Part shown: positions 11,026 through 61,937 of the stretch, piece by piece
How positions within the stretch are numbered: the stretch's first letter is position 1
Layout of the letters: every line of letters starts with the position of its first letter
Source: Timema cristinae
Taxonomy: Eukaryota; Arthropoda; Insecta; Phasmatodea; Timematidae
Reading direction: 5' to 3'
NCBI GenBank assembly: GCA_039000515.1
Contig: JBCFYV010011135.1
Span: 8,473,215-8,537,214 of the forward strand
DNA: 64,000 nucleotides
Position numbers and translations under genes: made by a program
Notes under the pieces: generated by a model
The model's database searches: none
The model's input: only the letters and a program-made list of their open reading frames with translations
Told to the model about the DNA's origin: nothing

Positions 11026-11120
11026 GTTTTGTGAACACGCCCGCCGAGTCCGCTGAGCAAGCATTGTCTGTGAAAGACTCAGATGGCGTTTTCTTCGTTC
11101 CTGCTTTTAATGGCTTGCAG
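11026..11120 (+). CDS. GK5: Glycerol kinase 5 exon (domain II start, FVPAF motif)
   Basis: This 95-nt exon is flanked by AACAG at the 5' side and GTAGGT at the 3' side. It starts with the last two bases of a split codon and ends in phase 0. It encodes 31 residues ending SDGVFFVPAFNGLQ, matching the stretch before the second FGGY domain in animal GK5 (the VPAF/SF-GL motif common to glycerol kinases). The preceding residues correspond to the variable helix before that motif. The donor leads in phase 0 to the exon at 17698, which continues with APINDNQAAAGFIGLKPTTS, so the junction Q-A-P reads through. No ORF of its own signals it; it was found by homology and splice signals. The product is a predicted ATP-dependent kinase of the FGGY family. 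Confidence 0.88.
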
Positions 11121-12539
11121 GTAGGTATATCATGTGCATAGAAATATTATATACAAAGGAAGAAAATATTCTTAGAAATTGATGCACAGAGAGTATGTAT
11201 ATGTGCTGTAAAGATCCCGTTTTATTAAATTGATTTCTAGTGCGTTTAAATTTAGGTTGTGTCAATTTTATTTAGTTTGACTGCACTGTTGCTGTTTTAT
11301 TTCCGTACACGTGCAAGCAGGCTACGGTGAATAAGGCCCCCCTTACACGATCAATATATTGTTTCAATATTATTGCTTCAATATAGTCATTCAGTTTGCT
11401 TGTTTACAGCCCTCGCAATAATTAAAGAAAAAACCTCGCACTCTAGGTGCGAGAAAGAGAGCAATATGCTTCATTTTTAAATTATATTGTTTTTATGTTC
11501 TTTTTCTAGAAATAGTTTTACTTGTGTCTGTAAGAGCTCGGCAGCTCCCGGGCACAATCTGAGTTTGAAGTTTGATAATTAGTGTTTGTTTTTGCTTTTA
11601 CTAGACAGGGTTGCTAACTGTCGATTCGGGCTAAGACGTGCGTGTGCTGATATGGCAACTTTATGATCAATATATATATATATATATAAAGTAAATCAAC
11701 TTTCAAGCATTTACGTTTTTCGACAATTAAAAAAAATTATTTCTTTAATTTCTAAATAAAAATTATATCAAATAACATAATAAAATGTGTTTACATTATA
11801 ATATACTTAAATCTCAGATCGCAGGTATGTGTTGAAGATACCGTATCACGACAGTGCGCAGCCACTAGGGTGTGCGCAGGCCCCGGGCTTATGTGGTTGG
11901 TGCCCTGAGCATAGATATCTCGGACATCCCCTCCCTTGTAGTTTTTATAAGCTTATCAATTAGTAGCTACGTTTAATAATTGAAAATGCACACTGATTAG
12001 AAAACCTTTTGGTCATTTCGATTGTTTATTCCTAGATGCTATGTTTAGGGCCATGGTAAATAAAATCAACATTTTTGTTTGTTTATTTTATAAGTCTTAT
12101 TTATTTTTAAACATCACTATATACATTTACATAAACACATACACATAATAGAAAAAACTGCTAATGCCAGCCCCACAGGGCTCTCGTACGATGAGCACTA
12201 CAAGACATTGTGAACACTTAGTAGTAGTCATTGAGGTTGAAATTGAAGTAAAAAAATATTATATTTTCGACACTTTTCTTAATAGTTAAACTTTATCGTG
12301 TTTTTTTTTAGCAGCACGCTTTTTGAGCTCGGCACCACTCAATTCCTACTCACATTTAAAGACTAAAACTTGGAAACAAGTCACTTAAAACACACATAGA
12401 ATCACTGAAAAAAGGTTATGTATGAAACACTTGACAACGAGTGTGTGAATGAAACGATAACATTAAGGATGAAACGCCAAGGCAGGCAGACGAGAATTAA
12501 AGTAACTAAGGGCTAGTTTGCAAATTACTATGTGACATA

Positions 12540-13790
12540 GTCACAACATGAAAAGAAAAGGCGTGGTTTGACTCACCAACTCTGTCTCCATTTGGCTACT
12601 CCACGAGGCTCCACACATCACACACTTGGCGGCCCGGTTTGTTTTCAACTGAGCCGAGTAACCATAACCGAGGTTACACCTCTAGGCCTACCCCCACTCC
12701 AAGAGAAAACAAGAGACGATCGACGTGCGCAGACCCGCGCGCACCGGCAACAGTGCAGTGATATCAACGGTCATCGGGCGGCGCGCGATTTGAAATTATG
12801 CCCGGAATATGGGAGGTTGTTCCAGAACAGTGCACTCCCTTCCCCCCTTTCCCAGCTCTGCTTCCCGCGCTATGAGAACACGTGACTCTACCTATGTGTA
12901 TATAATGGCAGGACTCTATAGCCATGGTACGCATTTCTCCACATTCTCTAGGTGAGGCACTTAGTGTGGGTTTAGGTTTAGGTTATTTTACTTCAAAATT
13001 CTGTTTGGCCTGGATTTGTTCAAAATTACTGTTTGGGCGATATTTATTTATGATTTAACTTTGTTTATTTTATATTGAGGCTGCAGGCCTTTTTTTGTAG
13101 AGATCATGGCGGGGCAACCTGGACTCAAAGAAATTACTATTCAGGCTAGCGTATCTCATCCACTTCACGGATTGTTTTGAAACTATTATCGTCGCCATGT
13201 TTGATATTCAGGGTATTTGCTAAATTGTTTGGTATAATCATGTTGGCTGATTACGTTACTAATCATTGTTGGGGAGATAGAACTCCTATTAGTCTAAGCT
13301 TAGTTAGTCAACTCTGGGGTCGCGAGCCCGCGCAATTAGTTTGTTAGTTTGTTTGTGGCTAAGTCACTGAATTATGAAAGTCCCCAAATTATAATGGATA
13401 TTGGCTCTGTTTTGTGGGGCTTTGAATAGTTGTATTGGGGAACTTCTTAGTGGGCACCTTGCCTTACACGTCAGTTATTGGAAGTCGCTGATGGCGAGTA
13501 GTTTATATCTTATGATTATCGTTAGTACTGGGGTTATTGTTTGGATCTTCAATTATTACCATTGTACGCTACGGATTTGTACAAAAGTCAATTTCAATGT
13601 ATCTTAATGCTGTGGGCCCCTTAGACGGCCATCTTTGTACTCGGGGTCATGCCCCTAACCACTTGTTTGTGTATAACTATATTATGGCCTTATTGTGCTG
13701 ATGTCTGCGCCTAACGCTGGGCTAGTCCCACTCTTTCTCATCGAGTATTGTTATTGTTGGAAATAAATAAACTCTCTTGTGACCAACCTG
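12540..13790 (+). other. Promoter-like block with poly(A) signal, possible solo LTR or exapted TE
   Basis: A GC-rich segment (12560-12900) contains a TTCCAGAA heat-shock-type half-site pair near 12820, an E-box CACGTG near 12880 and a TATA-like TATATAATGG near 12900. About 850 bp downstream are AATAAATAAA (13763-13772) and a second AATAAAG. A comparable order of elements occurs at 30280-31445. This could be a long terminal repeat or a non-coding transcription unit. No terminal repeat or target duplication was recognised, so the call is tentative. Confidence 0.25.
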
Positions 13791-13814
13791 ACTTTTATTT
13801 GTTATATAAATAAA

Positions 13815-13845
13815 GTGGTGGTGGTGGTGGTGGTGGTGGTGGTGG
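13815..13845. repeat. (GTG)n microsatellite
   Basis: About ten perfect GTG units directly after AATAAAG. Confidence 0.95.
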
Positions 13846-15573
13846 GGGGTTACAACTACACTTGAATGCGTGAATAGCAGGAAATTGACTGTGATTTACG
13901 CATTTCGCATTTTTAAAAGCAGAATAAACGCAACAAAAATAATACAGTAATTTTGTCACGTTTTATTTTATGTGTAAATAAAATTAATATTTTTACTCTT
14001 ATAAAATATGTTCCTCTCATGCACCTCCTAAAGTCTGGTGCCCTGGGCCTTTGCCCAGTTCACCCGGTTATAACCAGGGGCTTGGGTGTGCTTAAGAGGT
14101 CATCCATTAAATACGCAAGCTGGTTGAGATTGATGGAGATTGGCTAAAGCGCAGAATATACCAGCAGGTCTGTCTATGGTCAAATTGGCCAAAGTAAATA
14201 ATTTTCTTAGTCTCACTTCTATTTTATTACATGAGGCACATGCCTCAACGTGCATCTCCTGTGCGCCTAGTTGCATGAAAAGAGGCATAGTCTAAAGGCC
14301 CCTTTATTTATTCATTCCTATTCACTGAACAAAGAGAAAACTGGTGGCAAGAACTATTGTGACGTCAACATAACGTCACTTTTTCTCTCTCTACTAATTC
14401 ATATGAAGAGTTTACTTCTAAAGTCAATGATACGTAAAATAAAATCTATGATGAAAATTACATGAAATATATAAATATTTTTCTTATAAGCTAGCAATTA
14501 CATTATATTTGACAAATTTCTGAACGCTTTTCAAACAACAATATTATTTATGATAAAGTAATAAAGTACCATACTTAATATATATTGTAGAGCAAAAGTC
14601 TAACGCTTTTGTTGAATTAATAAAACATTTATATATATATTTTAAAACATGTTTTAAAAATTTAACTACACGCCATATTTAAGTAATAAGATAAATTTAA
14701 ATTCAGTATAAAACAAAACCACTAATGACCTAAACAACCCAAAATAGCTTGTCGGCATTCCTCTTGACAATCAGGTCAAATTAATATATATAGTACTATT
14801 TTTTTTAGTTAACTTTAGAATAACTAGACATTCATAAAAGATGTATACAATGAAATATTTTAGATATTAATCATATTAATAAAACTAGAATAATATTATG
14901 TATTGTCATCTCCCTCTTGTGGACCCTATATTGTCAGGTTGAGTTGCGGTCAAGGATGGGTATGGTCACTGGATATATGCGGGTGGGCTCGTAATTTATA
15001 GACGGCTTTGGTTTTTATGGTGTATTGACTAAATTACTTTACCTTAACAACGGTACGCAAACATTATAAAATAGCAAGTTTAACTCCTTATAACTCATCA
15101 ACTATAACGATTTTAAATCATTGAATAAATTGTATAGCTAATAATAACCATACACATGTTAGAATTTTTATTGCCTAACAACCTTTAGCGTCCTAAGCCA
15201 CGAACATCATTAATTTACAGGCCGGGGTGTTCACTGTGGACAAACCGCCTGAAGTGACGTCATGGGGCCTAGAAAACTGCTGTAAACCGGTGCAAATTCA
15301 CCGTTCTCTTTCATTAAATATTGTATTTGTCATTTTAAACTATAAATATGAATAGTTGTAACTATAGCAACGCACATATTACGTGTCTTTCACCAATATA
15401 GTAAAAATATATATTTTGAAAATTAATAAGGGCTTAGTTTATAAACTTATAAACGAGGTAGTAGCATTTTTGATTTAAGTTAAATATATAGGTTTATTAT
15501 AAGTATTTAGGTGTAACACTAAAACATATATCCAAATAAATAACAACATTATTTCTTTGAATACAGTATCAAA

Positions 15574-61379: not shown

Positions 61380-61630
61380 AGGAGGGGGGATTCTATACGC
61401 TTCTAGACTGGAGTAGAATAAAAACATGGCACTGGCGAAGAGTGTCTTCTTTCCAGCCGAAGATCTTTGGTTCGGGAAGTTGTTTCTGAGAATTGAACAG
61501 GCGCGGTCTCAGTATTTCGTGGTCAGTCGTCTTATTCAGGGGTGTGCGTTTCGATTGGTCGGTCGGGCGTGTAGTTGAGCTAGCAGCAGACGGTGTCGGT
61601 ACAATAGGGTAAGTCCGTTGTTATTGACTT
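61380..61630 (+). promoter_or_regulatory. GC-richer segment with CCAAT-type box and splice-donor-like end
   Basis: Within the intron, a less AT-rich block contains GATTGGTCGGTCGGGCG (inverted CCAAT) and ends CAATAGG followed by GTAAGT at 61611. It could be an alternative first exon and promoter, or a repeat. No transcript evidence is available. Confidence 0.2.
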
Positions 61631-61660
61631 GGTTATGGTTAGCTTGTGGCTAATGCTACA

Positions 61661-61772
61661 ATTAGTTACTAACGATACCAGACACATTTCCAGGGAGTGT
61701 ATTAGTTACTAACTGATACCAGACACATTTCAGGGAGTATATTAGTTACTAATTGATACCAGACACATTTTC
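61661..61772. repeat. Short tandem repeat, 39-40-bp unit, three copies
   Basis: TTAGTTACTAACGATACCAG plus ACACATTTCCAGGGAGTGTA, repeated three times, ending about 38 nt before the exon acceptor at 61811. Confidence 0.95.
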
Positions 61773-61810
61773 ACCAAACTTCTCCAGCTTATACTGATCT
61801 GGCTTTGCAG

Positions 61811-61937
61811 ATGGCTGACCAGGCAGCATCCTTGTTCGGGTCATGCTGCTTCCAAAAAGGAGATGTCAAGGTTACCATGGGGACTGGGACCTTTATAAAT
61901 CTCAACACCGGGAAAATCCCTCATGCTTCTGTTGCAG
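61811..61937 (+). CDS. GK5: Glycerol kinase 5 exon (catalytic Asp, ADQ and GTGTF motifs)
   Basis: The exon lies between TTTGCAG and GTAGGA. It encodes [20 protein letters not shown], then [20 protein letters not shown] and VA. The Asp of ADQ corresponds to the catalytic base of FGGY kinases (the GDQQAALFG block of bacterial glycerol kinase). TMGTGTF is the conserved block that follows it. Entry is phase 0 and exit phase 1, the same phase as the acceptor of the exon at 11026, so the missing exon between them must be phase-symmetric. It is intact. Confidence 0.96.

Follow-up and report, generated by a model that had tools for sequence, protein, structure and literature searches.

GK5 exons in the window and on the surrounding scaffold

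The stretch of DNA analysed here (the window, 64,000 nucleotides of the Timema cristinae assembly, C7570:8473215-8537214) carries exons of GK5 (glycerol kinase 5), a gene of the FGGY carbohydrate kinase family. The window is made up of contig 1 (positions 1-31571), contig 2 (31672-58855) and contig 3 (58956-64000); seven-digit positions given below are those of the assembly. Seven GK5 exons, all on the plus strand and non-overlapping, yield one protein when translated (Table 1). Five of them match a protein of T. tahoe (P0001; E 2e-36 to 2e-14), and the two that have no counterpart in it, at 59055 and 27225, match the GK5 of Bacillus rossius (P0009; E 4e-8 and 8e-11). When the exons are joined, the resulting 356-residue read finds its best match in a Timema GK5 (T. 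tahoe, E 2.3e-170), and chance is excluded as the source of the match. Pfam profiles locate FGGY_N in the contig 3 exons and FGGY_C in the contig 1 exons (E 9e-15 and 3.5e-28). The Timema gene therefore shares both domains with GK5, its closest proteins are those of Timema GK5, and no difference from known GK5 was found; it is an ordinary insect GK5.

The exons are arranged as a C-terminal block followed by a middle block, across two 100-N gaps. This arrangement had been described in an earlier note made from the letters of the window, and it is confirmed by the exon translations and the protein matches. The phases given there also hold (phase 1 for the donor at 61937 as for the acceptor at 11026), and the phase-symmetric exon expected between them corresponds to an exon of about 36 residues that the Timema proteins place between the two blocks. 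A search of the window did not recover this linking exon (best E 0.48 among the matches listed). The N-terminal exons, already reported as missing between 27.4 and 59 kb, were likewise not found in the window in a search with GK5 proteins (best E 0.18 and 0.89). Frameshifts are confined to the contig 3 exon at 59939, which contains three within 316 bp, with none in the four contig 1 exons of the window; the earlier note is silent on them.

Table 1. GK5 exons, gaps and duplicated segments of the window (window positions; seven-digit numbers are assembly positions)
Feature	Position	Strand	Details
45-bp minisatellite in the intron preceding the 11026 exon	1158-9575		contig 1 array about 8.4 kb, contig 3 array about 3.3 kb
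GK5 exon GFVNTPAES...NGLQ, contig 1, phase-1 acceptor	11026-11120	+	second copy C7570:8564874-8564968, 0 differences in 95 columns
GK5 exon APINDNQ...SLIR, contig 1	17698-17861	+	second copy 8571537-8571699, 0 differences in 163 columns
GK5 exon VDGGVSHND...LYSG, contig 1	25778-25911	+	second copy 8579608-8579745, 0 differences in 138 columns
Last GK5 exon, TAA stop, contig 1	27225-27367	+	second copy 8581055-8581198, 0 differences in 144 columns
Gap 1, between contigs 1 and 2	31572-31671		100 N; bridged by 5,495 bp of contig 3 (8585392-8590886)
Contig 2, collinear noisy copy of contig 3 8590887-8618584	31672-58855		no GK5 exon found by protein alignment
Gap 2	58856-58955		100 N; the duplicated stretch restarts here
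Contig 3 head, 5,045 bp	58956-64000	+	duplicates contig 1 8437420-8442452 at 99.17%, introns included, from the first base of contig 3
GK5 exon SLRTGARW...LMNTQ, contig 3 duplicate	59055-59144	+	0 differences in 92 columns against contig 1 8437517-8437608
GK5 exon VTMRLVW...AIRCS, contig 3 duplicate	59939-60254	+	three frame-breaking single-base indels; intact on contig 1
GK5 exon MADQAAS...HASVAG, contig 3 duplicate, phase-1 donor	61811-61937	+	0 differences in 127 columns against contig 1 8440268-8440394

GK5 proteins were aligned to the whole of the surrounding stretch (8385000-8677214, 292 kb). On contig 1 the gene is in normal order, with exons spanning 8413605-8500578. Those that start before the window (8413605, 8426117, 8433888, 8437516, 8438368, 8440250 and 8444136) end with the linking exon that the window lacks, at 8444136, and those starting at 8484239, 8490909, 8498984 and 8500435 are the window's four C-terminal exons. 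Contig 3 carries exons starting at 8532266, 8533158 (the frameshifted one), 8535007, 8538896, 8564873, 8571533, 8579602 and 8581052, and the exon at 8538896, past the window end, is a second copy of the linking exon. Because it starts inside the gene, contig 3 has none of the first exons. GK5 is in normal order on each of the two contigs; its permuted look comes from the placing of the window, which starts partway through the first copy and stops partway through the second. A search with the FGGY_N profile through the 1.29-Gb assembly (7,605 contigs) listed two matches among the six candidates scored. Both lie before the window, on the same strand, one at the N-terminal exon (8433882) and the other at the intact twin of the frameshifted exon (8438371).

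Geometry of the duplicated stretch

Two copies exist of the stretch that begins in the middle introns of GK5 and finishes with contig 2: one consists of the contig 1 tail, the gap and contig 2, and the other forms the start of contig 3. The match between contigs 1 and 3 runs on to the end of contig 1 (8504785, corresponding to 8585391), broken by an insertion and by the minisatellite, with an identity of 99.2-99.6% outside the latter. Beyond the end of contig 1, contig 3 adds the sequence corresponding to gap 1 and then tracks nearly all of contig 2, starting at the first base and stopping 17 bases before the last. The two main blocks of this match have identities of 93.5% and 94.5%, a smaller block has 89.5%, and the final 1.4 kb about 79%; directly before this tail, 1.4 kb are found in contig 3 alone. 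The copy on contigs 1 and 2 measures 94.7 kb (8437420-8532069), that on contig 3 86.4 kb (8532170-8618584).

The two copies meet only at an assembly gap, where no contig crosses the junction and 100 N alone stand between them. The flanks and the 5.5-kb bridge were compared with the 292 kb for second copies of at least 1 kb at an identity of at least 95%. None was found for the bridge or for the left flank, the 52 kb of contig 1 that precede 8437420, and with the thresholds lowered to 300 bp and 90% the left flank still gave no match to contig 3. The right flank, the 59 kb of contig 3 that follow 8618600, gave six matches, all of them from a local repeat inside the flank. No other strong match to the contig 2 tail was found in the 292 kb (one of 219 columns at 69%). 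As it appears in these alignments, the layout is that of a dovetail, with two overlapping assemblies of a single locus placed one after the other.

Differences between the copies

Over 1,184 aligned columns, the eight coding exons shared by contigs 1 and 3 are free of substitutions; they differ by three single-base gaps, which fall in one exon and each break the contig 3 frame. Outside the minisatellite, 50,069 columns of the two contigs show 75 substitutions (35 transitions, 40 transversions) along with 145 indel events, of which 121 are one base long. Consensus noise is marked by indel-led differences and an excess of transversions; among natural variants substitutions predominate, and transitions are the commoner kind. 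The excess of errors in the duplicated stretch was judged between the copies themselves, from indel-led differences and from frameshifts unaccompanied by substitutions. In their two main blocks, which cover 23,062 columns, contigs 2 and 3 differ by 517 substitutions (142 transitions against 375 transversions) and by 710 indel events, a count that omits the blocks 8510969-8511248 and 8511306-8513449 (89.5%) and the last 1.4 kb. At gap 1 the indel rate jumps from 2-4 to 18-36 events per kb. With about 5-6% of differences from contig 3 in its main blocks, mostly single-base indels and transversions, contig 2 looks poorly polished, although substitutions lead in part of its tail.

Two larger differences separate contigs 1 and 3. 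Upstream of the window, contig 1 contains an insertion of 9,065 bp (8455362-8464426) that contig 3 lacks; its edges carry a near-repeat of about 17 bases. The open frames of this insertion, judged by eye, look like those of a Gypsy-type element on the minus strand, and it is a candidate polymorphic insertion. The other difference is the length of the minisatellite array (Table 1). The contig 1 array holds a run of 69 C (7144-7212), while no C run above 3 occurs in that of contig 3; the centre of the long array may therefore be poor consensus.

Origin of the second copy

Taken together, the sequence comparisons make it very probable that this is a false duplication produced by redundant, overlapping contigs laid end to end, most likely representing two haplotypes. 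So understood, the case is an ordinary assembly error. The two parental haplotypes would have been assembled into contigs of their own, which no purging step would have merged here, and the scaffolder would then have set both copies end to end beside the same neighbours. The three frameshifts of contig 3 would be consensus errors, which perhaps arise since polishing reads lack unique placement in a doubled stretch. The 9-kb insertion and the unequal minisatellite lengths of contigs 1 and 3 speak for two haplotypes; the low substitution rate does not. The earlier note had also blamed the assembly, and in this it was likely right, although the fault would consist of a duplicated contig and not of a misplaced one.

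False duplications are described in a part of PMC9516828 as mostly separated by gaps, richer in erroneous k-mers, and a cause of false gene gains. The retained haplotigs treated in that part share with the present locus two collinear copies on one scaffold, a gap between them, a false extra gene copy and an excess of base errors in one copy. The present case differs from them in two ways: one of the versions is split between contigs 1 and 2, giving a scaffold of the form A1-A2-B, and few substitutions separate the copies in the contig 1 part. Haplotigs retained in long-read assemblies are the target of purge_dups (PMC7203741) and of Purge Haplotigs (named in PMC11691646).

Several observations weigh against a false duplication from two haplotypes. 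Contigs 1 and 3 diverge by only 0.15% in substitutions, whereas false duplications are richer in heterozygosity than correct regions according to section 7 of PMC9516828. One haplotype might therefore have been assembled twice from noisy reads (homotype duplication), a sub-case of false duplication. The indel-led differences and the low substitution rate between contigs 1 and 3 would agree with it, but base-level noise would hardly make an insertion of 9,065 bp whose edges carry a near-repeat, nor a 5-kb difference in minisatellite length, and we regard this sub-case as unlikely. Contig 2 also fits imperfectly. Its first 1.6 kb contain only 5 substitutions (0.31%), so that there is no clean substitution step at gap 1, and in its larger block the substitutions vary from 0 to 56 per 1,500 columns. 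Its last 1.4 kb, at about 79%, include 864 columns in which substitutions lead (77, with 37 indel events), and single-base noise does not account well for this substitution-led tail. Finally, the FGGY_N search of the genome, which listed two of the six scored candidates, did not list the frameshifted exon of contig 3.

The tandem partial duplicates that the earlier note had offered as its alternative come nearer the truth in sequence terms, as a second copy is present, but a real event of this kind is improbable. It would be a tandem segmental duplication, very recent and about 90 kb long, that included most of GK5 and left the second copy truncated at its 5' end; the copies would differ by the Gypsy-like insertion and in minisatellite length, and the assembler would have failed to cross the junction. 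Two collinear tandem copies, near-identical over the contig 1 part, are what such an event would leave, and the 9-kb structural difference and the unequal minisatellites would suit it as well. However, its junction would have to coincide with an assembly gap, with the first base of one contig and with a point no more than 17 bases from the end of another, and it would have to reconcile three frame-breaking indels in the exons with the lack of any substitution, and the duplication with a sharp change of indel rate at gap 1. Among 12 protein records from seven other Timema species, no same-species pair covers one exon (eight of the nine exons compared), which also speaks against a tandem duplication, but is weak evidence on duplication, the protein database being clustered at 90%.

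The three frameshifts in one exon could be taken as the mark of a decaying pseudogene on contig 3. Gene decay yields far more substitutions than indels, and the 1,184 exon columns hold no substitution; as the eight-exon copies differ by indels only, this reading of the frameshifted exon is very improbable and was rejected. Least credible of all is the misordering of contigs that the earlier note had preferred as the simplest reading, in which a single GK5 gene is split and contig 3 belongs before contig 1. Within the window the two exon sets are indeed complementary and compatible in phase, and the proposal fitted the window alone. It is refuted by contig 1, which upstream of the window already has the N-terminal exons, the same middle exons and the linking exon in order, while contig 3 has C-terminal exons of its own; if contig 3 were moved ahead of contig 1, the middle exons would therefore still stand in two copies. 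The alignment of GK5 proteins to the 292 kb, close to a check that had been proposed for the whole scaffold, went against misordering by returning the normal order on contig 1 and a repeat of the later exons on contig 3. A complete second GK5 copy outside the window, named in advance as an observation contrary to misordering, is largely what was found, short of the first exons on contig 3.

A falsely duplicated region can thus make a normal gene look circularly permuted when a window is cut from it, which calls for caution. Gene counts and scans for copy number or selection on this assembly would meet a false extra, frameshifted GK5. The remedy would be to purge or merge the contigs, not to reorder them.

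GK5 in other Timema species

The GK5 protein is closest to that of T. monikensis (234 of 239 residues, over 4 exons), followed by those of T. tahoe (364/375), T. californicum (357/374) and T. genevievae (357/375), and then by T. bartmani (257/270), T. poppense (339/360) and T. podura (164/175); these counts compare eight of the nine exons, the one at 8437517 being left out, with a coverage of exons that varies among the species. In a part of PMC8865771, T. cristinae is given as the sexual sister species of T. monikensis, and parthenogenetic Timema are reported to be almost free of heterozygosity. The presence of two haplotypes would accordingly suit a sexual species.

Other features of the window

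An intron of GK5 contains pieces of a broken Gypsy-type retroelement on the minus strand (19584-23229), with open frames that, judged by eye, are integrase-like and gag/protease-like. Two tRNA-Ser-like matches lie in inverted orientation at 16117-16190 (minus strand) and 16470-16540 (plus strand). The repeats around this pair are 96% alike over 105 bp and stand about 270 bp apart, and the pair is perhaps formed by the arms of a mobile element and not by tRNA genes. A dispersed repeat of about 300 bp occurs at 18194-18513, 42013-42334, 45779-46082, 50067-50343 and 54324-54607; by eye it is SINE-like (short interspersed nuclear element), and some of its copies end in a TAA repeat.

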